From: Gilvimarinus sp. 2_MG-2023
Lineage (GTDB): Bacteria; Pseudomonadota; Gammaproteobacteria; Pseudomonadales; Cellvibrionaceae
Assembly: GCF_030547685.1 (NCBI RefSeq)
Contig: NZ_JAUOQM010000024.1
Coordinates: 1 to 40,581 of the forward strand
Length of the DNA stretch: 40,581 nucleotides
Reading direction: 5' to 3'
Numbering within the stretch: position 1 is the first letter of the stretch; every line of letters begins with the position of its first letter. Below, in pieces: positions 24,515 through 40,581 of this stretch. The notes under the pieces were generated by a model that saw only the letters and a program-made list of their open reading frames with translations, had not been told where the DNA came from and made no database searches. The position numbers and the translations under genes were made by a program.

Positions 24515-25468
24515 TTAGCCTACATCCACCATGCGGTTGCGCCCCTGTTGTTTGGCCATATAAAGGCGGCGATCTACCGATTGGAGAAATTCTTTGATGG
24601 TGTCTGTGTGCTCCGGCAGCGTAGTGTCTATACCCATGCTGACGGTAACGATGTGACTGGCGTCGGAACCCTGATGGGGAATTTGCTCTTTAAAGATTAA
24701 GCTACGGCAGCGGTCTGCGACCTTGCGGGCCGATTCGATATCGGTTTCGGGCAAGACTAAAATAAATTCTTCACCACCGTAACGCGCAAAAAAATCCCGC
24801 GGGCGAGTAGCGCTTTGACTGAGAACTTTGGCGACTTTTTTCAGACAATCGTCACCCTGAATATGACCGTAAATATCGTTGTATTGTTTAAAGAAATCGA
24901 TATCAAACAAAATGACAGACAGGGGTTGATTGTTGCGCCGAGCATTGGTCCATTCTACTTCAATGATAGAGTCGAACATACGGCGATTAGCGACATTTGT
25001 CAGACCGTCTTTAAACGATAGATCCTCCAATTCTTTTTGCAGGTCAAAGAGCTTATCTTCAATCTTTTTGCGTTCGCTGATATCAAACATAAAGCCCACG
25101 AGTGATTCAACGTCACCGATTTCGTCGCGAATAACGTGCACGACATCGCGAATCCATACGTAATCACCCTTTTTGGTCAGGGCGCGGTAATCGGCTTCGT
25201 GATCGGCTCCGGCCTTGGATTGTGATACGCAGTAGTCGACAGCCCAGTCGCGATCTTCCGGATGCATACGTTCAGCCCAGTCTTCAACGGATTTCCAGCT
25301 GTCTTGCGTCCAGCCCAACAACGTCTCAATTTGTGGGCCAATATAGCTAAACTTGAGTGTTTTCCAGTCAATTTGCCAAGGGATAGCTTGCGTGGATTCC
25401 AGCAGTGTTCGGTAAAACTGGGCATTGAGTGGAGGGTTTAGCGTGTTGATTCCATTCGAATCCGACAT
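24515..25468 (-). CDS. PAS-GGDEF diguanylate cyclase
   Basis: The 317-aa cytoplasmic protein has a PAS domain (about 18-135, with the PAC end GFMFDISERKKIED), a short coiled linker (136-152) and a GGDEF domain (153-315). The active-site signature is GGEEF (231-235) with upstream DGLTNVANRR and FDIDFFKQYND, so it should make cyclic di-GMP. An intact inhibitory site RPRD (222-225) lies five residues before GGEEF, predicting product feedback. There is no membrane segment; the PAS signal is unknown. It is divergent from the GGDEF-EAL gene at 25852. Confidence 0.93.
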   Translation of the reverse strand: MSDSNGINTLNPPLNAQFYRTLLESTQAIPWQIDWKTLKFSYIGPQIETLLGWTQDSWKSVEDWAERMHPEDRDWAVDYCVSQSKAGADHEADYRALTKKGDYVWIRDVVHVIRDEIGDVESLVGFMFDISERKKIEDKLFDLQKELEDLSFKDGLTNVANRRMFDSIIEVEWTNARRNNQPLSVILFDIDFFKQYNDIYGHIQGDDCLKKVAKVLSQSATRPRDFFARYGGEEFILVLPETDIESARKVADRCRSLIFKEQIPHQGSDASHIVTVSMGIDTTLPEHTDTIKEFLQSVDRRLYMAKQQGRNRMVDVG

Positions 25469-25851
25469 AGATTGTAAACCTTGTGAGTGTTTGCTCGATA
25501 TAACTTGATGGGTTGCCGAGAGCGAGTCTAGTCATACAGTATAAGTGACCGTATTTAAAATATCAGGTTGTCATAATGAGATCGACTGGTATGTGTTATT
25601 CAGTGTCAGGGAAGGCATAATAGTTTTATCAGGCAATGTACAGTCTTCAATATTGCCAATAAGTGCGATAAAAATGACAGCTAATAGAATTATCCAGTCA
25701 TAGTCGCTATAAATTATTTGATAATGGGTCGCATTTTCTGTTTTTAAGCGCTACATTTAGTGTGACGTCGTGTTTGTGTATGTGCTGAAATTTAGTTGGG
25801 TAATAAGGGCTCTAGCCTTTCCCTTGCCGATGGATGAGGTTGATTTTTACT
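25469..25851. other. Divergent promoter region between two c-di-GMP genes
   Basis: This AT-rich 383-bp gap separates the PAS-GGDEF gene (minus) from the REC-PAS-GGDEF-EAL gene (plus). It must contain both promoters, but I see no strong sigma70 pair, operator palindrome or small ORF in it. Confidence 0.5.
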
Positions 25852-27927
25852 ATGGGAACCCCCTTAAAAGTATTGTTTGTGGAAGACTCCGAGGTGGATG
25901 CGGAGTTAACACTGGTTGAATTGGAACGCGGTGGGTTTGAGCCCAGCTCTGATCAAGTGCAAACATTAGAAGAAATGCGTTCAGCCTTAGGTGATCAGCA
26001 GTGGGATGTCGTGATCTGCGACTATAAAATGCCTCGATTCACCGCCGAAGAGGCGTTGACCACTCTGCAGCACAGTGGTCAAGACTTACCCTTTATTATT
26101 ACCTCTGGAGCTGTGTCGGCAGAAGATGTGGTCTCCTTGTTAAAGCAAGGGGCGCATGATTTTATGGATAAGCGGGCACTGGCTCGCCTTGTGCCCGCGA
26201 TTGAGCGAGAGTTACGCGAAGCTGAAATGCGCCGTAGCCAGCGCGAAGCGCAAGAGCGCGTTAGAATTTTATCCCGTGCGCTAGAACAAAGTCCCGTTGC
26301 CGTATTGATTACGAACCCTGATGCCTGTATTGAGTATGTTAACCCGCGCTTTGAAGAACAAAGCGGCTACAGTGCCGCTGAGGCGATAGGGCAAAATGTT
26401 GGATTCACCTTACAAGATGAGCGATCCGACGAAACTCTCGCCCAGCTTTGGGCGACAGTACGAAATGGGCAAGAGTGGCACGGGGAATTTACTAGTCGCA
26501 CCCAAAAAGGACAGTTGATTTGGGAGCACGTAACGGTTTCGCCTCTGACTGATTCGCAGGAAATCATTACGCATTTCATAGTGATTAAAGAAGATATTAC
26601 TATCCGGCGCAGCTACGAAGAACAGCTTCTGCGCCAAGCCCACTACGATGAACTAACTGGTCTGGCTAATCGCGTGCTGTTGATTGACCGTTTACAGTTG
26701 GCGATCAATAACAATGAGCGCGAAGTATGCCAAGCGGCTGTCTTGGGTATTGATCTGGATCATTTTAAAAATGTAAATGATAGTTTGGGTCACAGCATTG
26801 GCGATAACCTATTGAAAGAAGCCGCTGATCGATTAGCAAAATGCGTTCGTGGTGGTGATACGCTGGCGCGTATGGGCGGTGATGAGTTTATCGTGCTGCT
26901 GCCAAGTCTGAAAAATCCACGCGACGCACAAATTGTTGCTGAGAAAATATTGCGTCAATTTGAACAGCCATTTGTTATTTTTGGGCGCAATTATTTTGTA
27001 ACTGCCAGTATTGGTATTGCATTATACCCTAACGATGGCGCCAACCCTCATTTGTTAATGCGCAATGCAGATTTGGCGATGTACCAAGCCAAAGAGCAAG
27101 GGCGTAACGGGTACCACTTTTTTACCGAAGACATCAATGTTCAATTATTAGAGCGTCTTGAACTGGAATCGCAGTTAAGATTTGTAGTGGAGCGCAATGA
27201 ACTACTGCTTCATTATCAGCCAATTTATGATTTGGAAAGTGTGCAGGTAGTCGGTTACGAAGCTTTGGTGCGATGGCGCCGAGATCGCGATACTTTGACG
27301 ATGCCCGGAGTGTTTATACCCTTGGCAGAGGATATCGGCATTATTCATGAAATCGATAGCTGGGTGTTGCGAACTGCATGTCGAGAATTGCGCGATATTA
27401 TACAAAATCATGGTATGCGTTTGGCGGTAAATATTTCAGCTCGACAACTTGATGTTGAAAACTATGCGCAGTATGTAGCCGAACAACTGGAGTTAAACCA
27501 GTTGCAACCGGATCAAGTTGAATTGGAAATAACTGAGAGAGTGTTGGTCGAAGATACCGATAATACCCAAGAAAATTTACAAGCGTTGTGCGAAATGGGA
27601 ATCCGTTTGTCAATTGATGACTTTGGGACAGGGTATTCATCGCTTGGTTATTTACAGCGTTATCCTTTTAAAACACTGAAAATTGATCGCAGTTTTGTGA
27701 GTAATATAGCGCAAGAGGGTGGTTCTGGCTCGTTGATAGAAACGATAATAACTCTGGCACATGGGCTGAATTTGGATGTTGTGGCAGAAGGCATAGAGCG
27801 TGAAGAGGAAATGATATTTTTACAATCATTGGGGTGCGACTATGCGCAAGGGTTTATGCTGGATAAACCCATGACATTGCGAAAAATACAGTTGATTTTA
27901 GCGCAAGAAGAGGGTTCGAAATCATAA
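25852..27927 (+). CDS. REC-PAS-GGDEF-EAL response regulator
   Basis: The 691-aa protein carries a receiver domain (5-120; acidic E11-D12, phosphoacceptor D57 in CDYKMP, K107), PAS (about 138-250), GGDEF (262-425; GGDEF at 342-346, inhibitory RGGD at 333-336) and EAL (about 440-685; EAL at 470-472). EAL catalytic positions are all present: NISARQ, ELEITE, IDDFGTGYSS, K in KTLKIDRSF, VVAEGIE and AQGF. Both synthesis and breakdown of cyclic di-GMP are thus possible. The start at 25852 is preferred over 25834, as GAGG lies at 25836. No cognate kinase gene is adjacent. Confidence 0.92.
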   Translation: MGTPLKVLFVEDSEVDAELTLVELERGGFEPSSDQVQTLEEMRSALGDQQWDVVICDYKMPRFTAEEALTTLQHSGQDLPFIITSGAVSAEDVVSLLKQGAHDFMDKRALARLVPAIERELREAEMRRSQREAQERVRILSRALEQSPVAVLITNPDACIEYVNPRFEEQSGYSAAEAIGQNVGFTLQDERSDETLAQLWATVRNGQEWHGEFTSRTQKGQLIWEHVTVSPLTDSQEIITHFIVIKEDITIRRSYEEQLLRQAHYDELTGLANRVLLIDRLQLAINNNEREVCQAAVLGIDLDHFKNVNDSLGHSIGDNLLKEAADRLAKCVRGGDTLARMGGDEFIVLLPSLKNPRDAQIVAEKILRQFEQPFVIFGRNYFVTASIGIALYPNDGANPHLLMRNADLAMYQAKEQGRNGYHFFTEDINVQLLERLELESQLRFVVERNELLLHYQPIYDLESVQVVGYEALVRWRRDRDTLTMPGVFIPLAEDIGIIHEIDSWVLRTACRELRDIIQNHGMRLAVNISARQLDVENYAQYVAEQLELNQLQPDQVELEITERVLVEDTDNTQENLQALCEMGIRLSIDDFGTGYSSLGYLQRYPFKTLKIDRSFVSNIAQEGGSGSLIETIITLAHGLNLDVVAEGIEREEEMIFLQSLGCDYAQGFMLDKPMTLRKIQLILAQEEGSKS

Positions 27928-27957
27928 AACGCCCCGTTAACAGGGCGTTTTATGATT
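27920..27957. terminator. Bidirectional terminator over two stop codons
   Basis: Fifteen-bp perfect arms (27920-27934 and 27943-27957) enclose an 8-nt loop, with a CGCCC/GGGCG core and AAAA/TTTT ends. The stem covers the stop codon of the GGDEF-EAL gene and touches that of the convergent HAD gene, so it should serve both. Confidence 0.85.
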
Positions 27958-28630
27958 AAGGCTGGATAATTTCCCAGCCATTTTTTGACGCTTCCGCTTC
28001 CAAACCGCGTCCCCCTGCTACAACTCCGGCGGTACCTATTAGTTGCAACATCGGTAAGTCAGAAATATCATCACCATAGGCAAAACAGTCCTTGGGATTG
28101 GTATTATGTTTTTGTAAAAACTGCGTTATGGCGATTGCTTTACCCTCCCCGATGGTTTGGGGTGACATGATGTCACCCGTGCACTGCCCATTTTTTACTT
28201 TCAGGTCGATGGCTAAAATATGGTTTACCTTGAGTTCATGCGCAATAGGCTCTAACAATTGGCGAAAAGAGCCTGAAACAAACACTGGGGCGTGTCCAAG
28301 CGCTTGGTGCTGCTGTAATCGCTCTACAACGTTTTGATGATAAAAGTGTGGTGATTTATGCTGCATGGTTTCGTACCACTGGCGCGAAACAGAAGCGATG
28401 TGCTCAATAGCCCGACCCGAAAAATGCTGATAATACAAGCGATTTAAATGGGCCCAGCATGCACCAGGATGCATATGTTCCAATAAGTCTTGTCGGTAAG
28501 AGGCTTCCTTTTCCGCGTCTGGATACATATGATACCAATAATCCTGAAAACTCAGCATGCTTTTCACAGAGATAAGCGTGTCATCAACGTCGAAAAAAGA
28601 AAATTGTCGTCGTTTTGTTGGCTGTTGCAT
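27956..28630 (-). CDS. HAD-superfamily subclass IB phosphatase
   Basis: The 224-aa protein has all HAD motifs: FDVDDTLIS (13-21; D14 nucleophile, D16 acid/base), VSGSF (motif II), K at about 174 (GEGKAIA) and YGDDISDLPML (motif IV). A helical cap sits between motifs I and II, as in phosphoserine-phosphatase-like HAD-IB enzymes. Substrate is unknown. It starts 10 bp after the stop of the AfsA-like gene, with GGGGG 5 bp before the ATG, so the two are an operon. That suggests it dephosphorylates the AfsA-like product or a later intermediate, which is inference. Confidence 0.85.
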   Translation of the reverse strand: MQQPTKRRQFSFFDVDDTLISVKSMLSFQDYWYHMYPDAEKEASYRQDLLEHMHPGACWAHLNRLYYQHFSGRAIEHIASVSRQWYETMQHKSPHFYHQNVVERLQQHQALGHAPVFVSGSFRQLLEPIAHELKVNHILAIDLKVKNGQCTGDIMSPQTIGEGKAIAITQFLQKHNTNPKDCFAYGDDISDLPMLQLIGTAGVVAGGRGLEAEASKNGWEIIQP

Positions 28631-28640
28631 ATGGCCCCCA

Positions 28641-29432
28641 TTAGCTCGCTAATTGAGAATCGATAGTCGAAGCTAGATCTGAGTAGGCATGTGCAAGATA
28701 ACGTTTTTGAGTTTTCTTGGCCTGCATTTCCTCTTGCCGGCCTATACGCAACTTATCGATGGCTGAGATGTTGAAAAACAAGCTCGACACACAGGTGTTG
28801 CACTGAACCACATCCGCTTCGATCGTGAAGCTCAAACGTTTAGGGTTATCGATATCTTTATTGGTAATACGGCAGACAATAGAAGCGTTTACTGGGAATG
28901 AAAAATTATTGTATTTTACCGACATATCGTTGAGCACGAACGCATATTTAATCTTTTTATTTTGAATGAAATGCGTTTCAGTGATTGCCACTGTAGCTTG
29001 GCGAACGGCTTCAATTAGTATCATGCCCTGCACATGTTGACCACTTTGGTGATCACTCATCAGCTCACAGTTCTCGTCAATCAGCAATTGTAATTCAAAA
29101 GTGTTCTCATTAATCTGTCGAGGGTGAGAGATCAACGTATTTTCTGGTTTATGCTTGTGGGTAATAGATTGACTGGCTCGTTTGGGTAAATGACGCCATA
29201 GGCTAAAATCGAAGCATGAGAAATTGGGTGATTGTTCGGCAATAGTGAGGACTTCCTCGATGCAGTGATCCCCCATCCCTTGGCCTGGGAGCAAGGTCGT
29301 CGATTCGTGCATAGAAAGCATTTGATCAGGCAGTGCCAATAAGCCTTTTAATTGTGAAACAGTCATGGCATCTTTGCCTATGGCATAAGACGCAAATTTA
29401 TCACCAACCACCAAAATAATACGGTTACTCAT
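28641..29432 (-). CDS. AfsA-like hotdog protein (A-factor biosynthesis family)
   Basis: The 263-aa product starts at the ATG at 29432, with GGGGA upstream; the frame to 29561 has no ribosome site. Residues about 88-190 match the AfsA hotdog domain as I remember it: THKHKPENTLIS (91-102), D127-H128, then VQGMILIEAVRQATVAITE (134-152). AfsA of Streptomyces griseus joins a beta-ketoacyl-ACP to dihydroxyacetone phosphate, starting gamma-butyrolactone (A-factor) synthesis. Streptomyces members have two such repeats; here only one is clear, and the N-terminal 85 aa are unfamiliar. No signal or membrane segment. The HAD phosphatase gene follows at 10 bp. Whether a butyrolactone is made is untested. 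Confidence 0.7.
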   Translation of the reverse strand: MSNRIILVVGDKFASYAIGKDAMTVSQLKGLLALPDQMLSMHESTTLLPGQGMGDHCIEEVLTIAEQSPNFSCFDFSLWRHLPKRASQSITHKHKPENTLISHPRQINENTFELQLLIDENCELMSDHQSGQHVQGMILIEAVRQATVAITETHFIQNKKIKYAFVLNDMSVKYNNFSFPVNASIVCRITNKDIDNPKRLSFTIEADVVQCNTCVSSLFFNISAIDKLRIGRQEEMQAKKTQKRYLAHAYSDLASTIDSQLAS

Positions 29433-29469
29433 GGGTTTTCCCCTTTGCTCGTGTGAGATTAATCTATCC

Positions 29470-29491
29470 TTGATCAGAGAAACCTGATCAA
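29470..29491. promoter_or_regulatory. Inverted repeat in the AfsA-like leader
   Basis: TTGATCAG (29470-29477) and CTGATCAA (29484-29491) are perfect 8-bp arms around AGAAAC. The element ends 38 bp upstream of the AfsA-like start codon. Its symmetry and position suit a repressor operator; it could also form a hairpin in the leader RNA. Confidence 0.5.
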
Positions 29492-29532
29492 CATTTGCTT
29501 GGAGTGTCAAAAATCGATCGTTTTGTACGCCC

Positions 29533-29548
29533 TGTGATCTATATCGCA
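29533..29548. promoter_or_regulatory. Predicted cAMP-CRP binding site
   Basis: TGTGATCTATATCGCA matches 14 of 16 positions of the consensus TGTGATCTAGATCACA by hand count, with a complete left half-site. It lies in the divergent region, its centre 108 bp from the AfsA-like start and 139 bp from the solute-binding protein start, so it could control either. Confidence 0.65.
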
Positions 29549-29679
29549 CTATTCGGGCCAAATTGATAAGACGGCCTATACTTATAAGAATAATGGAAGG
29601 ATTCGCTGTAATTTGGCGTCAAATTTTGCATAATGCCGATTGAACAGCTCATTGAATAATTAAATAAGCAGGTAATTCA

Positions 29680-30399
29680 GTGTATAAATCAGTAGGTGTC
29701 AAATTTTTGTTATGGCTAAGCGTTGTTTTGACGCCTGCTCAGGTGTTGGCAGCTAGTCTTAATTTTATATCAATCGATGTAGAGCCCTGGGCGACCGAAA
29801 AAAATGGAGAAATGTCAGGAGGGTTTATCGAGTTGGTGAAAGAAATATCCGCCAGAACCGGGTATTCCATTGATATTAGCTTAACCCCTTTTGCCAGAGT
29901 TGATCGGGAGCTGGAAACCGGCGGCCACGACTGCACGATATTGATTCCGCGCAGCGAAGAGACCGTGGTGCCAGGAGAGTTGGTGTCATACCATGAGATG
30001 GGTTTAATCGCCCGCCCGGGTGTGGAAATTAACAGCTACGAAGATTTAACCGGCCTTAAGATTTCGCTGATACGAGGCTCTTCTATTACGCCACGCTTCG
30101 ATTCTGACCAGTCCTTAAATAAGGTATATGATACGGATTATTTAATTGCATTGCGAAAGCTGGCGCGTGGACGAATTGATGCTATAGCAGGGGCCATTCC
30201 AACAGTGCGATACTTGGCGGTCCACAATCGTTTGTCAGCCGCTATCGGTGAAACATTGGCGTTGGCCGATATACCTCTAATTTTTCAATGTTCACGTAAA
30301 TCGAGTCAATTGCCACAGATGGAGAAAATAAATCAGGCCATTCGAGCAATGAAGCAAGATGGTACTATCGAAAAAATACGGCAACAATATTACTTCTAG
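29680..30399 (+). CDS. Periplasmic solute-binding protein (SBP_bac_3 type)
   Basis: The 239-aa protein starts at a GTG with AGG 7 bp upstream. Residues 1-24 form a signal peptide cut after LA. The rest is a family-3 extracellular binding protein: GGFIELVKEISARTGYSIDI (about 47-66), then YEDLTGLKISLIRGSS (125-140) and a C-terminal MKQDGTIEKIRQQYYF, the usual ending. No ABC permease or ATPase gene is near. The gene ends 18 bp before the histidine kinase gene, so it may present a ligand to that kinase. Ligand unknown. Confidence 0.85.
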   Translation: MYKSVGVKFLLWLSVVLTPAQVLAASLNFISIDVEPWATEKNGEMSGGFIELVKEISARTGYSIDISLTPFARVDRELETGGHDCTILIPRSEETVVPGELVSYHEMGLIARPGVEINSYEDLTGLKISLIRGSSITPRFDSDQSLNKVYDTDYLIALRKLARGRIDAIAGAIPTVRYLAVHNRLSAAIGETLALADIPLIFQCSRKSSQLPQMEKINQAIRAMKQDGTIEKIRQQYYF

Positions 30400-30417
30400 G
30401 GCCAGCGGGTGAGGAAA

Positions 30418-31989
30418 ATGGAGTTCTTCAAGCAAATTTCCAAAGCTGTAAGCCATACAGGCATTGGTCGACGGTTGTTACTGCACATCATTTTATTTAG
30501 TTCGGTAGTGACACTGCTAGCTACGGCGGTTCAGCTTTTTACCGATTATCAGCGCGATATTAGCTTGATTGAGGGACGCCTGGGAGACATACAGAGTAGC
30601 CACCTGTCGGCTATAAGCGCAAGCTTGTGGAATCTTGATACTAAGCAACTTTATATTCAAATAGAAGGTATTCGTCATTTGCCAGATGTGGATGCGGTTG
30701 CAATCTATGAGCTGTCAGAAAGTGTGATAAACCCATTAGTGATTGAGCTGGGAAAGTTTCAAGATACTAACGCCATTGTTCGCGAATATTTTATCTTTAA
30801 GCCAGATACCAATGACAAGCAAGTGATAGGAGTGCTGAAAGTTCAAGCTTCTTTGCAAGATGTATACGCAAGGTTGTTAGATAAAGCAGTGGTTATATTA
30901 TTAAGCCAAGGGGTTAAAACCTTTTTGGTGTCCATGTTTATATTATTTATATTTTATCGATTAGTTACCGTGCACCTCAGTGAGATTGCCAACCATTTGG
31001 CGCGATATAAAATAGTTGAACCAGCCCCAAGGTTAGCACTGCAGCGAAAGCAGCTTGACGATAAAGATGAACTAGATCAGGTTGTAGAGGCGTTTAATCA
31101 ACTGACAGATAATTTAGTAAGTGCTTATGATAATTTACAATCTATCAATAAAGCACTGGCAGACGATGTCGCGGCTCGAAAGCGTGCGGAGAGAGAGGTA
31201 AGAAGGCTTAATCTTGAGTTGGAAGAGCGTGTACAGCGTCGAACTGCAGAGTTAGAGGCTGCCAATAAAGAGTTGGGCAGCTTTTGTTTTTCAGTGTCTC
31301 ACGATTTACGTGCGCCGCTTAGGCGTATTGATGGTGTTTGTCAGGTGTTACAAGAGCGACTGGTAGATGATTTATCTGGTAAATCCAGGCACTTCTTTGA
31401 TCGAATAACTCAAGAAAGTCAATCAATGAGTGAAATGATTGATAGCTTTTTGCAATTGTCACGAGCGACACAAAGTGAGTTGAATGTAGATAGTGCTAAC
31501 GTTTCGTTGATAGTGGAAAAGCTAGTAAATGAGCTGCAAGAAAATAATAAAGATCGACAGGTAAGTGTAATCATTGAACCCGATATTTGGGCTGATATTG
31601 ATCGGCGAATGATGACGGTATTATTGAACAACTTACTGTCCAATGCATGGAAATATACCGAAAAAGAAAGTGCTGCGGTGATTGAGTTTGGGCATTATGA
31701 AGAAGAGTCGGGCCAGCAAGTGCTGTTTATTAAAGATAATGGGGCTGGTTTTGATATGAAGTATGCCGATCGGTTATTCACGCCCTTCACACGACTTCAT
31801 CGACAGGACGAGTTTGAGGGTGTTGGGATTGGCTTGGCAACCGTGCAACGTATTGTGGCAAGACATGGTGGGCACATATGGGCTGAGTCTGCCCCAGATT
31901 CAGGGGCAGTATTTTATTTTACTCTGTGGGAGATGCATAGCCACAGTAGCTCGGATACTCATCGGTTGCCAGTAATCAATAAAGCGTAA
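30418..31989 (+). CDS. Membrane sensor histidine kinase
   Basis: The 523-aa kinase (from ATG 30418; GTG 30409 is an alternative) has a first membrane helix at about 19-44, a periplasmic domain (45-158) and a second helix near 160-184. HAMP-like and coiled segments follow (185-285; ERVQRRTAELEAANKEL), then HisKA with SFCFSVSHDLRAPLRRIDG (H295) and HATPase_c (NNLLSNAWKYTE, IKDNGAGFDM, GVGIGLATVQRIV). The H-box is of the phytochrome-like type. No response regulator gene is adjacent. The binding protein encoded just upstream may be its periplasmic partner. It converges on the DUF6491-like gene with 4 bp between stops. Confidence 0.9.
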   Translation: MEFFKQISKAVSHTGIGRRLLLHIILFSSVVTLLATAVQLFTDYQRDISLIEGRLGDIQSSHLSAISASLWNLDTKQLYIQIEGIRHLPDVDAVAIYELSESVINPLVIELGKFQDTNAIVREYFIFKPDTNDKQVIGVLKVQASLQDVYARLLDKAVVILLSQGVKTFLVSMFILFIFYRLVTVHLSEIANHLARYKIVEPAPRLALQRKQLDDKDELDQVVEAFNQLTDNLVSAYDNLQSINKALADDVAARKRAEREVRRLNLELEERVQRRTAELEAANKELGSFCFSVSHDLRAPLRRIDGVCQVLQERLVDDLSGKSRHFFDRITQESQSMSEMIDSFLQLSRATQSELNVDSANVSLIVEKLVNELQENNKDRQVSVIIEPDIWADIDRRMMTVLLNNLLSNAWKYTEKESAAVIEFGHYEEESGQQVLFIKDNGAGFDMKYADRLFTPFTRLHRQDEFEGVGIGLATVQRIVARHGGHIWAESAPDSGAVFYFTLWEMHSHSSSDTHRLPVINKA

Positions 31990-31993
31990 AAAA

Positions 31994-32443
31994 TCAGGGC
32001 TTGTCTTTCTGCTGGCTTTGCTTGCGGATAGTAAGCGCATCATCGTGGGCGGTAAATGCCTGTTCACGATCTTCAAATTCAAACACGGAACGGATTTGGC
32101 AGTGGCTATCGCCGGTGCGTAAGCGACTTACCCCGCCCCCGCAGACATCCCCAAAGTGATCGTCAAACAACGCATTTGGGGAGATGCCTAAATCGAAGCA
32201 GCCTGGTCTAACGGTAGCCAAATAATAATGATTGCCTCTGGCGTTGATCGAAATGACGTCGCGTTCCAGAACACCATACCCTGTTATATCATTGACTTGA
32301 ACACAAGCCCGCCCATTCTGCTGAGTGACCTCTAACAGGGCTGTAGTCATACTGGGCGCGGCCGGTTTTGTGGACGTGCTGCAGCCCAAGCTGATTGCAC
32401 TGGCGACGATAGTAGTACATAAAAGCTTGTGGGAATAAAACAT
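31994..32443 (-). CDS. DUF6491-like lipoprotein
   Basis: The 149-aa product has a lipoprotein signal peptide, AISLGC (16-21) with C21 the lipidated residue, followed by a Ser/Thr/Pro linker. The body has ACVQVNDITGYGVLERDVISI, then NHYYLATVRPGCFDLG and a CGGGVSRLRTGDSHCQIRSV segment. This resembles the small DUF6491 family as I recall it. There are several cysteines, possibly paired. Function is unknown. GGAG precedes the ATG. It is convergent with the histidine kinase and not obviously in an operon. Confidence 0.6.
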   Translation of the reverse strand: MFYSHKLLCTTIVASAISLGCSTSTKPAAPSMTTALLEVTQQNGRACVQVNDITGYGVLERDVISINARGNHYYLATVRPGCFDLGISPNALFDDHFGDVCGGGVSRLRTGDSHCQIRSVFEFEDREQAFTAHDDALTIRKQSQQKDKP

Positions 32444-32582
32444 AGTGCGGCTCCGTAATGGGAGTGTAGATTTGATAATTGCGAGGTAAAACCGAATAAT
32501 GATTACGTCTTACCATATACTTTAAAAGGATAAGCTACCGATAGTTTAAATACAAAAAAAACAATATTTATATAGATAAGCC

Positions 32583-33311
32583 TTAAACTTCAAATGAAAA
32601 GCCGCGGCGAGTGAGTGAGTGGTAGGTATGTTCATCGAATCGGTACAATTTAGCAGCTCGATGTGAAACGCCGATTTCTTTTTCTTCGCAGTTTATTAGC
32701 AGGTTCATTTTCATGATTTTTCGACGAAAATTAGGTTTGTCGAGTTTTATGCCCAGGATGGATTCATAAAGTTCTTGCAGTTGCAATAAAGTAAATTTTT
32801 CAGGTAGCAAATTAAATCCAATTGGCTGTCGGCGTATGTTTTGTTGTAGTTGTTTGATGCCGTATTGCAGTATGTCTGAGTGATCGTAAATCAATTCCGG
32901 TAGTTCTCGGATGTTAAACCAGCAAACATCTTCCGTTTTATGTCCTACGGCCAGTTCGAACTTTTCAGCACTGACCAGGGCATAATAAGAAACGGTAATA
33001 ATGCGCCCCTTGGGGTAGCGATTAACCTGGCCAAAGGTTTTAAGTTGCTCAAGATAGAGTCCTTTTATGCCGGTCAGCTCGAGTAAGTGCCGACTGGCAG
33101 CATCGCGTAGGTTCTCATTATAACGAATGCGCCCACCGGGCAGCGCCCAGCAGCCGGCACTTTCCCCTTGACTGTGCTTGACGAGCAAAATGCTAAGTTG
33201 CCCCTCGTGAAAGCCAAAAATGAGATTATCGATAGAAATGGTAGGAATAATGCTGTCTTGCGGGGGGGCTTGGTCGAGCTGAGCATCTGCAGACGATTGA
33301 TTTTCCGACAC
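32583..33311 (-). CDS. NrtR-type Nudix transcriptional regulator
   Basis: The 242-aa protein starts at GTG 33311 with AAGGA upstream. A Nudix-fold sensor (about 22-160) is joined to a C-terminal winged helix (about 170-240; NLLPEKFTLLQLQELYESILGIKLDKPNFRRKI). This is the NrtR layout, known to repress NAD or sugar-use genes in response to ADP-ribose-like ligands. The Nudix box (60-82) is degenerate: R74-H75-L-L-E78-L79 replaces REUxEE, so hydrolase activity is unlikely. No NAD or pentose gene is nearby, so the target is unknown. An AT-rich 190-bp region precedes it. Confidence 0.87.
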   Translation of the reverse strand: MSENQSSADAQLDQAPPQDSIIPTISIDNLIFGFHEGQLSILLVKHSQGESAGCWALPGGRIRYNENLRDAASRHLLELTGIKGLYLEQLKTFGQVNRYPKGRIITVSYYALVSAEKFELAVGHKTEDVCWFNIRELPELIYDHSDILQYGIKQLQQNIRRQPIGFNLLPEKFTLLQLQELYESILGIKLDKPNFRRKIMKMNLLINCEEKEIGVSHRAAKLYRFDEHTYHSLTRRGFSFEV

Positions 33312-33501: not shown

Positions 33502-36363
33502 TTACCGATAGATTTTTGTTAATGCTTGATTCAGTCTCGACTCGATGGATCGTTTCTGCTGTAGGTAATGTATTAACTGTAGCCCAGTTTCGGGCGCTAG
33601 AAGATCAGAGCAGGCAGTCAAATCTAAATCACTAATATGGCAGTGATAACGGTTTTTACCTTGGCGCTTATGCAAGATATAGCGCGCTGCCATTTCGAAT
33701 GGATCTAGTTGTTTGGCATTGTATTCGTGATTGTCGCAAATGATTGTGTAGTGTAGGCAAAGGTTTTCATCCGGCTCGACAATAACTTTGATATCCGTGT
33801 ATTGTACTGATTTGGTAGCAGTCGAGTCATTGTGGCATTCGATGGTGTAATCTTTGCCATTATTAATCACCTGACGAATTTCAATACCGTGCGAGTTGTC
33901 TAACGAGACAAAGTGATCTAGTGCGAACTTTTCCCCTTGAGAGGAAAGTCGTGCATTGACAGAGGCAATAAAGTTAATAATCGGAAGAGGGTAAGCTTGA
34001 CGATCTTGTGATTGATTGTTAAAACGAAATAAAGCCCCGCTTACATCACAATAGGTATAAATAATCCCGCTATCCGTCATTTCATAATAGAGATAGTGCT
34101 GGGCGGGTTTGGTTGATTCTATAATGCAACGAAGAGCTGTATTCAATAAGGCTTTGGAGTCAAGAATTAAAGGCCTGTCGTGTGATTGTGGCGTTTCCAT
34201 ATACCGAAAAAGATCTTCTATAGAGCGGAGCTTGGTGACTGACGGAGTTCCCTGATGAAACTGAACAACATAGAAGTGTCGATGAGTTTCAATCAAATAG
34301 CGTGCATACGAATTACCATTGACACCATAAAAGCATTGAGTAATACGATTGAAAAGTTCATATAGCCTATTTTCAATAAGTGCGCCAAATTGCTGGTCGG
34401 GGCAGACTATATCAAGTTCTGGTGGGGTTTTTATGGCGTGGGGCGGGGCAAATCTTAAGTAAGCGATAAGTATTTCGCTAAGAGAGTCCCGGTTATAATT
34501 TCTGACAATCAATTCCGACCAGCTATTGATATGGGCAATATCCGCAGAGCGGACCAGATTGTCGTGCAGGCCACTATAATTGAGCGCATCTGATTGCTCA
34601 CTTAATAAGGTTAAACCTTGTTTGTCATAATTTTCATAAGCTGATGATATTAAATTAATGGCAATTTGAACTCGTGCAACGTGTGCAGTTTCCATAAATG
34701 CCTCGTGAGATGGAGGCGATTGCGATTTAGATAACCATTTTTTGGTACGCTGAATAAGGTTTTGTTGTTCAGTATCCCGGAGGCAATTATTGCCTTGAAT
34801 CTCGACTTGAGTCGCAGTGTCAACAATGCCATTCCAAATGGCCCAGACCAGCAATGCGTAATATGAATCGGCCGACAGCAGGTGGTTATGGATTTGGGGT
34901 GATGTTTTTTTCTGAGAGCGTTTATCTTTAAAGAGCGACCAGTGAGGTTTATCCTCGTTGAATGTAATCCAGATGTTAGGTTCTGATAAATCTTTAGATA
35001 TTTCTGGATTAATCGTTTCAATTTTTCCTGATTTTCTTTCAAAAGCAGCGTGTAGTTTTCGACCAAGTATGGCGAGTTCCTGTGAGCTAATAGATGCTTT
35101 TTGAAATGATTGACGCGATAAGTTGCTGAGCAGTCGATAGCTTTGGCTTAACTCTTTGATTAATAAATCACGCTCATGAATAACTTGATTTGCTTTCCAA
35201 AGTTTATGGGAGTCAAGACGTAATAGTTGAGTGTTATCCCATTGCCACTGGACAACGAATTTTTCCAATAATATTCTCTGCCACGACTTTTCTCGACTTG
35301 ATGGCTGATGTGTTAACGCTTTATTGACCTTAAAGTAGAAGCAGCGCCGGGCGAGATCTAGCCGGTCATTTTGATTGGTTTTGGTAAAGTATTCTTCAAT
35401 ACGTTTGTAAATAAGCAGATAGCTGTCCACCTCATCAGCACATGGCTCTGATTGATGTACAATTGATTTATAGTCAAGGGCAAGTGGGTAGGCTGTACCA
35501 TTGACGGCATAAGCTTCCAACAGCATTAACTTTATCACTGATTTGTGTGGAGAGTTGATGCCTTTGTACAGCTGCCAAATGCCTGCTCCTAAATATTCCT
35601 CATGAGGGATGTGGGTAATTGGGCCAAAATCAACGACATCTTGTTTTCGAATAAATCGCTTTTTTAATAGTTGGTCGGTAAAATATTGGTAGTTGTTTTC
35701 GTGTTTAACGGGGACGTACCACCATAGCGGAATCTTCCCTGCCACCCATATTGCACTTCGATAAAATTCATCCAGCAAAAGATGGTTCTGCGCCGAACCG
35801 CTGCTTTCTTTAGACATGGCGCCTGATGCAGGCTTGCCTTGTTTTCTATCACCGCAAACTGGAAAGAAATGCGCCTCAACGCCAAGCTCTTTGTCGGCCC
35901 ATGCACTGATAGCCTCGAATTTAGCTTCTAGTTTGGTTAAATCTTTCTGCGGTATGCTGTTTTTATGACAGACCCAAATGTCAAAATCACTGCGTTCGCT
36001 GTGCGCAATAGTGCCGACGCTACCCATAATAAACAATGCATCGATCGCCAGCTCTTGTTGGGCAAAAGTTTTTTTCAGCTCAAAGCTTCGGGTGATAATT
36101 TTAGCGGCACTAATTTGAATACTGTTGGGCTTGAAATAGGGAATGCCGCAAGGCGTGTCGCTGCCTTGATATCCGGGTAGCATAGGATGATTTACATGCA
36201 ATAATACAGGTAACACATCTAAAAATAGTTGTTGGCGAATCCCAATGGCCTGCCGGGTTCGCTCCAGGCGCACGGTATTTAATCCTAAAAAACGCTGTTT
36301 AAGGCGTTTAAGTTGTTTGCGATCTATGCCGTCATCTGGGTTGAGTTTCGAGAAATCATACAT
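33502..36363 (-). CDS. cyaA: Class I adenylate cyclase
   Basis: The 953-aa enzyme makes cAMP from ATP for CRP. The N-terminal catalytic region has the nucleotidyltransferase signature FIMGSVGTIAHSERSDFDIWVCH (111-133), with D126 and D128 the expected metal ligands. The length and the closing segment (LHKRQGKNRYHCHISDLDL) fit gammaproteobacterial CyaA. The regulatory C-terminal half is long and complete. Its ATG (36361-36363) overlaps the stop of the hybrid kinase gene as TGATG and has no Shine-Dalgarno, so translation should depend on the kinase gene. Confidence 0.93.
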   Translation of the reverse strand: MYDFSKLNPDDGIDRKQLKRLKQRFLGLNTVRLERTRQAIGIRQQLFLDVLPVLLHVNHPMLPGYQGSDTPCGIPYFKPNSIQISAAKIITRSFELKKTFAQQELAIDALFIMGSVGTIAHSERSDFDIWVCHKNSIPQKDLTKLEAKFEAISAWADKELGVEAHFFPVCGDRKQGKPASGAMSKESSGSAQNHLLLDEFYRSAIWVAGKIPLWWYVPVKHENNYQYFTDQLLKKRFIRKQDVVDFGPITHIPHEEYLGAGIWQLYKGINSPHKSVIKLMLLEAYAVNGTAYPLALDYKSIVHQSEPCADEVDSYLLIYKRIEEYFTKTNQNDRLDLARRCFYFKVNKALTHQPSSREKSWQRILLEKFVVQWQWDNTQLLRLDSHKLWKANQVIHERDLLIKELSQSYRLLSNLSRQSFQKASISSQELAILGRKLHAAFERKSGKIETINPEISKDLSEPNIWITFNEDKPHWSLFKDKRSQKKTSPQIHNHLLSADSYYALLVWAIWNGIVDTATQVEIQGNNCLRDTEQQNLIQRTKKWLSKSQSPPSHEAFMETAHVARVQIAINLISSAYENYDKQGLTLLSEQSDALNYSGLHDNLVRSADIAHINSWSELIVRNYNRDSLSEILIAYLRFAPPHAIKTPPELDIVCPDQQFGALIENRLYELFNRITQCFYGVNGNSYARYLIETHRHFYVVQFHQGTPSVTKLRSIEDLFRYMETPQSHDRPLILDSKALLNTALRCIIESTKPAQHYLYYEMTDSGIIYTYCDVSGALFRFNNQSQDRQAYPLPIINFIASVNARLSSQGEKFALDHFVSLDNSHGIEIRQVINNGKDYTIECHNDSTATKSVQYTDIKVIVEPDENLCLHYTIICDNHEYNAKQLDPFEMAARYILHKRQGKNRYHCHISDLDLTACSDLLAPETGLQLIHYLQQKRSIESRLNQALTKIYR

Positions 36364-38849
36364 CAGTGTTTAACGGTTGAGATCTGCCCGTTGAGTAGGT
36401 CTGAAAGTGTTTGATAGAGTAATTGGGGTTTAATCGGTTTGCTGATGTAGTCATTCATGCCTGCCTCAATACAGCGTTCTCGATCACCATTCATTGCTTG
36501 TGCCGTTACGGCAATAATGGGTAGTTTCTTGCAGTGGTCAAGCTTGCGAATGACACGAGTTGCTTCAATACCGTCCAAGATGGGCATCTCTATGTCCATT
36601 AATACTGCATCAAAAGGGGTGGCATTTTGAAGAATATCAACGGCCAGTTGTCCGTTTTCAACGCAGGTGACATCAATGCCCTGTTTTTTCATCATGCCTC
36701 GAGCTACCTGTTGATTAACGGTGTTGTCTTCCACCAAGAGAACGCGTTTGCCTTCCAAATGTGCGCGTGTGTCGGTAACAGAGGGTTCTTCGTTAAGATC
36801 GGACAGGCATTCGGGTATGGCCCGGCAGATGGCGTCGAACAGGCGCGACTCGCTGACCGGCTTACTGAGGAAGTCGTCGACAAAATCCGTATCTTTATGT
36901 TGTGAAAATATCTCATCACGCTGAAATGAAGATACTAAAAATATTTTTGGCTTATGATGAATAAAAGGTGCGTGGTATATATCTCGCGCCGCTTCCAATC
37001 CATTTTTTAATGGCATTTTGTAATCGAGTAGTAGCAAGTCGTAGGCATGATGATTGGCCTCGGCAAGTTTGATTTTTTCCAGAGCTTCCTGCGCGCTTGA
37101 GGCGGTGTCGACATGATCGACCAGTTTTCCGGCAGACTTGGCGAGGATGTCGAGTGCCAGTTGGTTGTCGTCTATGACTAGCAAGCGCAGGGCGCGGCAG
37201 CTGCTTTTTTCTCCGGCAATATGGTGGTCTCCGATGTGGCTGTGCTCAAATTGGGCATGAAATGAGAAGTTAGAGCCTTTTCCCAGTTTGCTCGAGATAT
37301 CAATTTTTCCGTGCATCAAAGTCACGAGCAATTTACATATTTGCAAGCCAAACCCGTGCTTACCCTGTGTGCCGGAGTGTGGCTGGGTGTTGAGGTCGTC
37401 CCGCAGGGTCTTCAATGTGGTGGCGTCTAGCCCTGTGCCGTGATCAATAATGCTAAATCGAAGATCAATTTTATCACTACTAGCATTCATGTTCTGAGTT
37501 TTAACAATCACTTGGTCACTGTTCGAATACTGCAACGCATTAGTGACTAAATGGCTGATGATGTGGCCCAGGCGAACTGCATCACCCCGTAAAAAGCGTG
37601 GCACGTCATCGGCAATATCAAAAATAATGTTGACCGGCTTGTGTACGGCTGCACTTTCGAACATACGGGACAGTCGCTCAAATACATGTTCCAGGTCAAA
37701 GTGTGAGTTCTCGAGGATGATATGGCCTGTATCTAATTTGGCATAATCAAACACTTGGTTGACGGTGTGCAATAAAGAATTGGCCGCGTGGTTGATGCTG
37801 CTTAAATAACTTTCCTGTTGCGATTCGAGTTGAGTGTCAGTCAGTAGGTGGCCGAGCCCTAAAATAGCGTTGAGTGGCGTGCGTATTTCATGACTCATAC
37901 TCGCCAAAAATTTACTTTTGGTTTGGCTGGCCATTTCGGCCTCTGCTTTTGCTTGAATAAGTGCTTGCCGATCGGTTATGGATTGGGTGATGTCTGAGTT
38001 GGTGCCAACGCAGCGAGTGGCTTTGCCCTGCTGGTCTGGCTCAACCAATAGACATTGACTGTTGACCCAGACAGTCTCGCCGCTGCGTTTACGTAGGCGG
38101 TACTCCAGGCACAGGGATTCGCGCCGGTTGTCGATAGCTGTATTGAACTCTTGCAGCACATTGTCTACATCCTCTGGGTGGATAACCTGATTCTTGAAGG
38201 TCTCGAAGGTGCCGGGTAATGAGTCGGGTTCAAAGTCCAGCATGCGCAAATAACCGCGGCTAAAATACAGGGTGTTTTGCTCGAGATTCCAGTCCCAGAG
38301 TCCATCGCGCGAGGCTCGCATGGCGTAGCGAAATCGTTTGTCACGTTCGTTTAAATGATTGATTAGCTGACCGCGCTGATAGGTTTCTTGTATTAAGGTT
38401 GCAACGTGCTTCGCAAAGCTTAGTAAAGCCGGCGCTGGTGCACTGGGTAGCCTGAGAATAGCCAGAGTTTGGCCACGTACCTTAATCGGGGCAAACAAGC
38501 CGTCTTCGATCGCGAGATCTTCGCCGTTGCTAAGTTGCTCGCGATAAGCGCTTGGGTTCGGCGGAGTTGGTGCGGCCAGTTCACCTGCAATTAATTGCCA
38601 GTGGTTAAGGTCACTGTCGACCGACCAAAGTGTCAGTGGTTGAATGTCGAGTTGTTCACTTAACAGCCGCAGGCTGGCGTTTATGTCGCCGGGCTCAGTG
38701 GAACCCAGTAATAGCTCCAAATGACACTGCATAGAGGGCAGCGCCCGATTCGTAGAATCAGAGTTACTTCCGGTCAGCGCCGATAAGGCGTGCTCCAGCT
38801 GCGCAATACGCGCCTCCAGGGCGGCCGTGTTCTCACTTTTATTAGCCAT
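36363..38849 (-). CDS. Hybrid sensor kinase, GAF-PAS-HisKA-HATPase-REC-REC
   Basis: The 828-aa protein has no membrane segment. A short coiled coil (5-25) leads to a GAF-like domain (about 45-155), PAS (about 172-292), HisKA (KSKFLASMSHEIRTPLN, H320), HATPase_c (HLVTNALQYSN, DHGTGLD, GKHGFGLQI) and two receivers. The first receiver has D609 (LLLDYKMP) with K663, and the second has D752 (LMDIEMP) with K about 801. No HPt domain is present, so phosphotransfer onward needs a separate HPt protein. It is translationally coupled to cyaA, suggesting that sensing and cAMP synthesis are co-produced. Start at 38849 has a modest AGGA upstream. Confidence 0.93.
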   Translation of the reverse strand: MANKSENTAALEARIAQLEHALSALTGSNSDSTNRALPSMQCHLELLLGSTEPGDINASLRLLSEQLDIQPLTLWSVDSDLNHWQLIAGELAAPTPPNPSAYREQLSNGEDLAIEDGLFAPIKVRGQTLAILRLPSAPAPALLSFAKHVATLIQETYQRGQLINHLNERDKRFRYAMRASRDGLWDWNLEQNTLYFSRGYLRMLDFEPDSLPGTFETFKNQVIHPEDVDNVLQEFNTAIDNRRESLCLEYRLRKRSGETVWVNSQCLLVEPDQQGKATRCVGTNSDITQSITDRQALIQAKAEAEMASQTKSKFLASMSHEIRTPLNAILGLGHLLTDTQLESQQESYLSSINHAANSLLHTVNQVFDYAKLDTGHIILENSHFDLEHVFERLSRMFESAAVHKPVNIIFDIADDVPRFLRGDAVRLGHIISHLVTNALQYSNSDQVIVKTQNMNASSDKIDLRFSIIDHGTGLDATTLKTLRDDLNTQPHSGTQGKHGFGLQICKLLVTLMHGKIDISSKLGKGSNFSFHAQFEHSHIGDHHIAGEKSSCRALRLLVIDDNQLALDILAKSAGKLVDHVDTASSAQEALEKIKLAEANHHAYDLLLLDYKMPLKNGLEAARDIYHAPFIHHKPKIFLVSSFQRDEIFSQHKDTDFVDDFLSKPVSESRLFDAICRAIPECLSDLNEEPSVTDTRAHLEGKRVLLVEDNTVNQQVARGMMKKQGIDVTCVENGQLAVDILQNATPFDAVLMDIEMPILDGIEATRVIRKLDHCKKLPIIAVTAQAMNGDRERCIEAGMNDYISKPIKPQLLYQTLSDLLNGQISTVKH

Positions 38850-39036: not shown

Positions 39037-40428
39037 TTAGCCCAGCAGCTGGCGGGCGCGGGCAACTGCTGCGGTAACCTGCGCCGGGGCGGTGCCGCCC
39101 ACGTGGTCGCGCGCAGCTACTGAACCTTCAAGGGTGAGCACTTCAAACACATCGGCAGTAATGGTGTTGGAGAACTGCTGTAGCTCCTCCAGGCTCATTT
39201 CCGATAAGTCTTTGCCAGTTTCTATGCCGTAGGCCACGGATTTACCCACTACTTCGTGGGCGTCGCGAAAGGGCATGCCTTTGCGTACTAGGTAGTCGGC
39301 CAAATCGGTAGCCGTTGAGAAGCCGCGGCGGGCCGCTTCGTACATGCTATCTTTGCGGGCGGTAATCGCCGGCACCATATCGGCAAAGGCGCGCAAACAA
39401 TCTTTGACCGTGTCAATGGCATCGAACAAGGGCTCTTTATCTTCTTGGTTGTCTTTGTTGTAGGCCAAAGGCTGCGACTTCATCAGCGTTAATAGACTGA
39501 TTAAGTGGCCGTTCACCCGGCCGGTTTTACCGCGTACCAGCTCGGGTACATCGGGGTTTTTCTTCTGCGGCATAATGGATGAACCGGTACAGAAGCGGTC
39601 GGGTAGGTCAATAAAGTCAAACTGAGCGCTGGTCCAAAGGACAAGCTCTTCACTGGCGCGAGACAGGTGGGTTAGCAAAATACTGGCAAAGGCGCAGAAT
39701 TCGATGGCGAAATCTCGGTCGGAAACAGAATCTAGGCTGTTGTTAGTGGGGCCATCAAAACCCAGCAGCTCTGCGGTGTAGGCGCGGTCGATGGGGTAGG
39801 TCGTACCGGCCAAAGCGGCGGCCCCTAAAGGCGATTGATTAAGGCGTTTACGGCAGTCTAGCAAACGGCTTGCGTCGCGGGTCAGCATCTCATTCCAGGC
39901 CAGTAAATGATGGCCGAATGTGACAGGCTGGGCGGTCTGCAGGTGGGTGAAACCCGGCATAATAGTGCCTGCCTCGCGCTCGGCTACCCCCAAAATCCCC
40001 GTTTGCAGACGCTTGAGTTCGGTGGCAATTGTGTCGATTTCATCGCGCAGGTAAAGGCGAATGTCTGTGGCGACTTGATCATTGCGCGAGCGGCCGGTGT
40101 GCAGCTTTTTACCGGTGATACCAATTTTCGCGGTTAGGGCAGCTTCGATGTTCATGTGCACATCTTCCAGGCTGACCGACCACTCAAAATTACCCGCATC
40201 GATATCGGCGCGTATTTCTTCTAGCCCGGTAATAATTTGCTGTTTCTCGTCAGCACTGAGAACACCAACTTTTGCCAGCATTGTGGCGTGGGCAATAGAA
40301 CCGTTGATGTCGTGGTGATACAGTCGCCAGTCAAATCCGATGGATGCGGTAAAACGCTCGACAAACGCATCGGTCGCTTCGCTAAAGCGGCCCCCCCATG
40401 ATTTGTTGGTCTGATCGGTATCGCTCAT
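39037..40428 (-). CDS. argH: Argininosuccinate lyase
   Basis: The 463-aa enzyme splits argininosuccinate into arginine and fumarate. Family signature [12 protein letters not shown] (about 279-290) contains the catalytic serine loop. Other landmarks are [10 protein letters not shown] at the N-terminus, [13 protein letters not shown] (about 107-119) and [14 protein letters not shown] with the catalytic histidine region. The start at 40428 is preferred because GAGAGAGA lies just upstream; the open frame to 40458 adds ten untypical residues. Length is normal. In pseudomonads argH also lies near cyaA and the lysA cluster. Confidence 0.97.
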
Positions 40429-40581
40429 AATCTCTCTCACAGCAGTCGTTGATGGCACACTGGTATAAACAGTGGCCAGAATACAAGAAAAGGCGGCATT
40501 ATAGCGTATCTAGAGCTGAGTCCCTATGCTTGAGAGATAGGAGGTGTGGAGGGCGTTATACTTGAACGCAGAACGCAGAAC

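Follow-up and report, generated by a model that had tools for sequence, protein, structure and literature searches.

What does an AfsA-like gene with a neighbouring HAD phosphatase gene make in a gammaproteobacterium, and what would read the product? A-factor-type signals are textbook Streptomyces hormones and are read there by cytoplasmic repressors. The locus analysed here lies in the window, the whole 40,581-nucleotide (40.6 kb) stretch of Gilvimarinus sp. 2_MG-2023 DNA.

The AfsA-like gene (28641..29432, reverse strand) encodes a putative butenolide-phosphate synthase of 263 amino acids counted from its ATG; an alternative TTG start would extend the gene to 29561. When the ATG form was compared with five other loci, the alignment ran from residue 1 in two cases and from residue 10 in three. 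The only Pfam family matching the protein was PF03756, the AfsA family (E 2.7e-16; 60.2 bits against a gathering cut-off of 24), and the match covered a single hotdog domain at residues 92-211. The HK, N, DH and E..RQ residues were invariant in all 41 aligned AfsA rows, the window's included, with H92-K93, N98, E141, R144 and Q145 unchanged throughout. An AfsA-like gene with HK...EN and EAVRQ motifs, picked out at these coordinates by an earlier sequence-only reading, was thus recovered by the PF03756 search that the same reading had proposed.

That reading had also named FabZ-like dehydratases as the best matches that would speak against an AfsA assignment. A search of the PDB with the AfsA-like protein alone gave no match at E <= 5, and a 15-row AfsA profile reached FabZ hotdog dehydratase structures at E 0.035 or worse, which was not significant. 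With PF03756 as the sole Pfam match, the FabZ-like interpretation was rejected. The region before the domain carries a GQG motif, a feature of the single-domain AfsA subfamily (Q51 and G52 in all 41 rows, G50 in 40 of 41; 12 rows shown). The 85 N-terminal residues had been described as novel, but the region could be aligned with other single-domain AfsA proteins, including one from Streptomyces clavuligerus, and a novel N-terminal domain was discarded. Unlike the Streptomyces synthases, the protein scored far below the cut-off of the ScbA/BarX gamma-butyrolactone synthase equivalog (NF041195; 27.8 bits against 200) and was not assigned to it. No AfsA match was found in the phages searched.

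Ten nucleotides separate the AfsA-like gene from the HAD-IB phosphatase gene that follows it (27956..28630, reverse strand). The stand-alone product of 224 amino acids scored 125.3 bits against TIGR01490 (cut-off 98.3) and carries the DVDDT, VSGS and GDDISD motifs, in agreement with the sequence-only reading. The motifs were present in the window and at all 22 other loci having the gene, the last D of DVDDT being N or E in three. A survey of gene neighbourhoods, also proposed earlier, placed the HAD gene beside AfsA in all 19 Cellvibrionaceae genomes with this AfsA type.

In the AfsA-type reaction, dihydroxyacetone phosphate (DHAP) is condensed with beta-keto thioesters and a phosphatase then acts (PMC7756379, PMC7037778). 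In vitro, condensation of DHAP with 3-ketothioesters has been shown for an AfsA-like domain of Gram-negative origin, and the phosphatase SabP is named as required for the SAB butenolides (PMC7756379); AhfaP/MmfP have been assigned to the dephosphorylation step after AhfaL/MmfL (PMC7037778). Because of these precedents, and because the AfsA and HAD motifs are present here, the product of the pair is probably a dephosphorylated butenolide, the HAD-IB enzyme presumably removing phosphate from the AfsA product. The AfsA/HAD assignment and butenolide-type pathway of the sequence-only reading were upheld by sequence and precedent. A Gram-negative AfsA gene near a HAD-IB gene is not new, with precedents in Ruegeria pomeroyi (PMC7426152) and Chromobacterium subtsugae (PMC12114271).

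AfsA together with HAD outside Actinobacteria is already in print for R. pomeroyi, Chromobacterium and gladiostatin. The AfsA-related and HAD-IB genes of the Gram-negative C. subtsugae have consecutive locus tags; unlike those of the window, they are co-expressed with MarR-regulator and efflux genes and are themselves under quorum-sensing control (PMC12114271). The AfsA-like (PBS) domain of gladiostatin biosynthesis in Burkholderia gladioli is likewise a Gram-negative AfsA-type domain with putative phosphatases in its cluster. It differs from the window's protein in being fused to a polyketide synthase that yields an antibiotic, and no sensor is mentioned in the portion of the report available (PMC7756379). 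The Streptomyces A-factor, methylenomycin-furan (MMF; MmfL-MmfP) and SAB butenolide (SabA-SabP) systems share an AfsA-family synthase with the window, and the MMF and SAB systems also have a phosphatase alongside it (PMC7037778, PMC7756379).

The conserved surroundings of the pair had been missed by the sequence-only reading. Divergent from the AfsA-like gene is a gene for a periplasmic solute-binding protein (SBP) of family 3 (29680..30399, forward strand; SBP_bac_3, Pfam E 7.2e-10). It is followed by a gene for a histidine kinase (30409..31989, forward strand) with a periplasmic CHASE5 domain (E 7.9e-20), HisKA (1.2e-12) and HATPase_c (3.1e-21) domains and the H-box SVSHDLRAP. On the other side, convergent with the HAD gene, lies a gene for a REC-PAS-GGDEF-EAL protein (25834..27927, forward strand), assigned by Pfam and by its GGDEF and EAL motifs to c-di-GMP synthesis/breakdown. 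Neither of the two neighbours of the SBP gene is a transporter gene, and a binding protein gene adjoining that of a kinase with a periplasmic sensor domain is the arrangement of a binding-protein-assisted sensor kinase. This adjacency was kept at all 18 uninterrupted Cellvibrionaceae loci. In LuxP/LuxQ autoinducer sensing a periplasmic binding protein hands the signal to a membrane histidine kinase; judged from the genes, the SBP and kinase of the window are a candidate for the same mode, with a different synthase.

A stand-alone receiver gene followed the kinase gene at 14 of the 19 Cellvibrionaceae loci (E <= 1e-20). None followed it in the window, in the nearest relative (G005) or in three genomes of genus g3 (a contig end lies there in G084). 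The best receiver matches of G000 had 33-39% identity, the best at E 3.1e-21. As no stand-alone receiver follows the kinase in the window, and REC-PAS-GGDEF-EAL is the only receiver-bearing cassette protein of the Gilvimarinus genome, the REC domain of this protein is the best cassette candidate for the kinase partner.

SBP genes beside CHASE5 genes also occurred elsewhere in Cellvibrionaceae without AfsA. At one locus (L144:1944-4827(+)) an SBP found with the cassette profile lay beside a CHASE5-PAS-sigma54-activator protein, and at another (L148:2289-6372(+)) a weak SBP_bac_3 match, below the cut-off, lay beside a CHASE5-PAS-HK-REC-REC protein. This recurrence favours the view that SBP and CHASE5 work together as a single sensor, and the two look like a reusable module. 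It is also a caution that sensors of this kind can respond to other ligands, so the cassette SBP may bind something other than the AfsA/HAD product. That its nearest solved relatives by sequence carry an amino-acid-binder label likewise tells against this product as the ligand. Among the CHASE5 literature matches listed, no paper was on the domain by its title. A structure model of the SBP (mean pLDDT 44) was too poor for pocket inspection or fold search. Asp is the amino-acid-binding residue of such proteins, and its loss was considered as a sign of a non-amino-acid ligand; the idea was dropped, as the Asp also seems to be missing from most of the SBPs in the wider group that do not belong to the cassette.

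The genes suggest a signalling circuit. AfsA (28641-29432) would condense DHAP with a beta-ketoacyl thioester of fatty-acid synthesis to a 2-acyl butenolide phosphate, and the HAD-IB enzyme (27956-28630) would strip the phosphate. The result would be a 2-acyl-3-hydroxymethyl butenolide, unless a housekeeping reductase converted it to a reduced butyrolactone. This chemistry is proposed by analogy with characterised AfsA relatives. The product would exit the cell and be bound by the periplasmic SBP (29680-30399), and the loaded SBP would engage the CHASE5 domain of the adjacent kinase (30409-31989). Phosphate from the kinase would pass to the stand-alone receiver at the 14 of 19 family loci that have one, and here to the REC-PAS-GGDEF-EAL protein (25834-27927), a route proposed from linkage. 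If so, the output would be a change in c-di-GMP, not direct control of transcription. From linkage, the chances are about even that the AfsA/HAD product is the ligand of the sensor. We are evenly divided on a self-contained cassette in which an AfsA/HAD-made butenolide is detected by the SBP-kinase sensor with c-di-GMP as output.

The genes, motifs, linkage and co-occurrence of the cassette were observed directly. Among 144 Cellvibrionaceae genomes, 26 had an AfsA match at E <= 1e-10 and 19 had the window type, set by E <= 1.8e-89 (the next genome was at 1.0e-68). Close SBP orthologues were found in the same 19 genomes (best match per genome E <= 2.0e-82; next genome 7.0e-33), and at E <= 1e-20 no SBP was matched in the seven genomes with other AfsA types. 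Of the 19, 18 also have a close kinase N-terminus (E <= 1.5e-43); in the nineteenth, G009, the kinase gene is in pieces with inner stops. The next kinase matches, at 4e-40, were in G128 and G116, two genomes that lack AfsA; the one in G116 is a longer hybrid kinase. With 18 GGDEF-EAL candidates scored in each genome, close matches to the REC-PAS stretch (E <= 1.5e-78) likewise came from 18 of the 19. A contig end truncates the copy in G087 (4.7e-36), and outside the 19 the best genome was G013 at 1.6e-48.

The gene order, with HK-SBP divergent from AfsA-HAD, was the same at all 18 uninterrupted Cellvibrionaceae loci, and in G009 the two halves of the locus lie at the ends of two contigs. In 18 of the 19 genomes the locus ends with the GGDEF-EAL gene; the exception is G003, in which the orthologue is on another contig. 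A sulfotransferase-family gene (L025:9257-10057(+)) follows the HAD gene in G003, at the expected GGDEF-EAL position. Three genus g3 loci (L113, L114 and L122) have two tandem solute-binding proteins before the kinase, not one, possibly with a widened ligand range.

The 19 genomes come from six genera, so the number of independent events is far below 19; the cases of co-occurrence that carry information are genus g2 and the Alphaproteobacteria. Close orthologues of all four genes (AfsA, SBP, kinase and GGDEF-EAL) were found in two of the 21 g2 genomes listed and of none in the other 19. All of these 19 contain weaker CHASE5 homologues, and in two of them an AfsA of another type is present. The pairwise identities of the cassette genes correlated with those of AfsA (r 0.79-0.83), as co-inheritance would give, which by itself is weak evidence. 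At L024 (G002) and L028 (G006), the AfsA and SBP of two genomes of one genus clustered with other genera, apart from the rest of their own, which suggests cassette replacement or a split genus.

The nearest named relative was Gilvimarinus gilvus, with an AfsA 80% identical to that of the window, and the gene was present in all eight Gilvimarinus genomes listed. In one survey PF03756 matches were found in 16 of 58 genomes against 0 of 14 control genomes. At E <= 1e-20 with profile A1, AfsA was found in 3 of 369 gammaproteobacterial genomes (own included) and in 3 of 385 genomes from the class to which Azospirillum sp. TSO22-1 belongs (that strain included); at E <= 1e-15 it was found in 10 of 390 genomes of that strain's order, all three sets being samples from larger groups. 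AfsA is rare outside Gilvimarinus and its close kin.

AfsA was also next to the kinase at five alphaproteobacterial loci, which show three further gene orders. Azospirillum sp. TSO22-1 (L019) contained REC, HK, SBP, AfsA, HAD and GGDEF-EAL genes, with the SBP gene flipped; its cassette proteins were 44-54% identical to those of the window, the REC being compared with that of L023. At three further loci (L018, L020 and L021), from two Kiloniella and a Rhodospirillales metagenome-assembled genome, AfsA-HAD is convergent with HK-SBP. The L018 kinase has an extra PAS domain, and the L020 and L021 kinases are equally long. No GGDEF-EAL orthologue was found in the fetched stretches of these three Kiloniella-type loci. 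The fifth locus, L107 of G541, has AfsA (8940-9722(-)), GGDEF-EAL and HK genes. The gene upstream of its AfsA gave an SBP_bac_3 match below the Pfam cut-off and fell outside the cassette SBP group, possibly a receptor swap. No HAD match was found at E <= 1e-10 in the whole G541 genome, whose completeness is unstated; its AfsA product may stay phosphorylated or be dephosphorylated by another enzyme. The GGDEF-EAL gene missing from the fetched Kiloniella-type stretches, and the HAD gene and cassette-type SBP missing from G541, count against the proposed circuit. Together, the Cellvibrionaceae and alphaproteobacterial orders make four arrangements that keep AfsA with the kinase, and in three of these the SBP is of the same family.

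The linkage could also reflect the inheritance of adjacent genes from a common ancestor without any function that they share, and most occurrences do fall within one family and show one gene order (all 18 uninterrupted family loci). Against this, the gene orders in Alphaproteobacteria differ, and the genes are jointly present or jointly absent within genus g2. Moreover, the other tested neighbours in the window (NrtR, DUF6491, CyaA, DAGK and more) were not found at the alphaproteobacterial loci, with the one exception of a 26% match to the 39037-40458 product at L107. Ancestry without function is accordingly a very improbable explanation.

At 17 other AfsA loci, from Ruegeria, Streptomyces clavuligerus and proteobacterial genomes, none had the SBP, kinase or GGDEF-EAL gene in stretches of 4.6-24.6 kb (E <= 1e-8, and E <= 1e-6 in a second comparison). 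One of them (L036) gave a kinase-like match of 27% identity at 1e-4. The three genes were also not found at L123, where an AfsA domain lies in a long frame and which was left out of the tree. A HAD-IB homologue was present in the fetched stretch of 12 of the 17, which makes the HAD pairing general and the sensor special to the AfsA group of the window. On the AfsA tree the 24 sensor-linked AfsA sequences formed one side of a branch (support 85/66; 75/57 when seven long rows were left out), next to the R. pomeroyi type (93/94), and support for a sensor-linked clade is moderate. A quick SBP tree placed 26 cassette SBPs in one group (SH-aLRT 100).

Streptomyces butenolide/butyrolactone receptors are TetR-type repressors, whereas the linked candidate receptor in the window is a periplasmic binding protein with a kinase. 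The receptor of a signal made by AfsA and HAD might instead be encoded elsewhere, perhaps as a TetR- or LuxR-type protein of the cytoplasm, with the SBP-kinase and GGDEF-EAL proteins regulating the operon or merely neighbouring it. TetR genes are present in the ahfa cluster (PMC7037778), and the SBP-CHASE5 pairs without AfsA would fit such a separation. However, AfsA, SBP, HK and GGDEF-EAL were jointly present and absent, AfsA stayed beside the kinase even without HAD (G541), and no TetR-type (ArpA-like) or LuxR-type match was found among the eight proteins of 24515-33311 scanned with Pfam. A receptor elsewhere is therefore unlikely.

The nearest characterised AfsA, R. pomeroyi DSS-3 SPOA0342 (39% identity, neighbouring tree group), belongs to a putative GBL killing cluster (SPOA0341-0343 and neighbours), in which, as in the window, a single-domain AfsA occurs with a HAD-IB gene, the latter taken from the annotated record. 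Killing by R. pomeroyi is reported to depend on afsA, as does the transcription of most of the cluster; the authors do not decide between a killing molecule and a signal, and they suggest that it may work together with at least one regulator encoded in the cluster (PMC7426152). In line with one model of that cluster, the AfsA/HAD product of the window could be an antimicrobial or other specialised metabolite, with the SBP-kinase sensing an outside cue (nutrient, competitor or surface) that times its production. The likeness of the SBP to amino-acid binders, the label carried by its nearest solved relatives by sequence, would suit such a cue. The R. pomeroyi cluster differs from the window in having AKR, CMD, tautomerase, MFS and hypothetical proteins and LysR regulators, and has no SBP, CHASE5 kinase or GGDEF-EAL gene of the window kind within the surrounding 24.6 kb. 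Conversely, a search of the 40.6 kb window at E <= 1e-8 gave none of its companions (SPOA0341/0343 type, two hypotheticals, tautomerase, AKR, CMD, MFS and LysR), and a killing cluster of this type was rejected there. Further points against a timed metabolite are that the GGDEF-EAL protein co-occurs equally strictly and that the cassette genes include no DNA-binding regulator, an NrtR-like regulator (32583-33311) lying outside. A metabolite timed by an outside cue is possible, if doubtful. One Cellvibrionaceae genome, G151, contained the whole R. pomeroyi-type killing cluster (L118:2738-9451), with MFS, CMD, AKR, LysR, HAD, tautomerase and two hypothetical proteins 45-74% identical to those of R. 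pomeroyi, plus AfsA.

A complete Gram-negative butenolide circuit, with an AfsA/HAD signal, an SBP and CHASE5 kinase as receptor at the cell surface and c-di-GMP as output, seems slightly short of an even chance. If it exists, an AfsA-family signal would be read by a membrane two-component receptor, not by a cytoplasmic repressor, and such a cassette would be carried by both Gammaproteobacteria and Alphaproteobacteria. In the open literature searched, as far as its accessible text goes, no membrane receptor or c-di-GMP output was seen for any AfsA product, and AfsA was not found combined with a periplasmic receptor and a c-di-GMP gene. The AfsA/HAD pair itself is of a known kind, and its combination with sensor and c-di-GMP genes would be the new part. 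Because the locus supplies a candidate receptor and output, the role of Gram-negative AfsA genes becomes directly testable.

The non-coding sequence was also searched. Upstream of afsA a perfect inverted repeat, TTGATCAG-N6-CTGATCAA (29470..29491, reverse strand), is possibly an operator and was kept outside the proposed mechanism. The TGATCA-N8-TGATCA pair was present in 2 of 23 upstream regions, those of the window and of its nearest relative (L027), and in none of the other 21; a conserved operator was therefore rejected. An AGTATA stretch, a weak signal, lay 147-276 nt upstream of afsA in 11 of the 23 regions. A pattern scan for promoter-like sites upstream of afsA gave no excess (2 found against 4.9 expected), and an Rfam scan of the leader gave nothing at the gathering score in the window, L023, L024, L026, L027 and L029 (L025 and L028 not included). 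An inverted repeat with 19-nt arms (95% complementary; 27920..27957), lying between the HAD and GGDEF-EAL genes, is probably a two-way terminator. Beyond the cassette, the NrtR-like NUDIX regulator (32583-33311), a class-I adenylate cyclase (33502-36363) and a PAS-kinase-REC-REC hybrid kinase (36363-38849), all on the reverse strand, are apparently ordinary neighbours.
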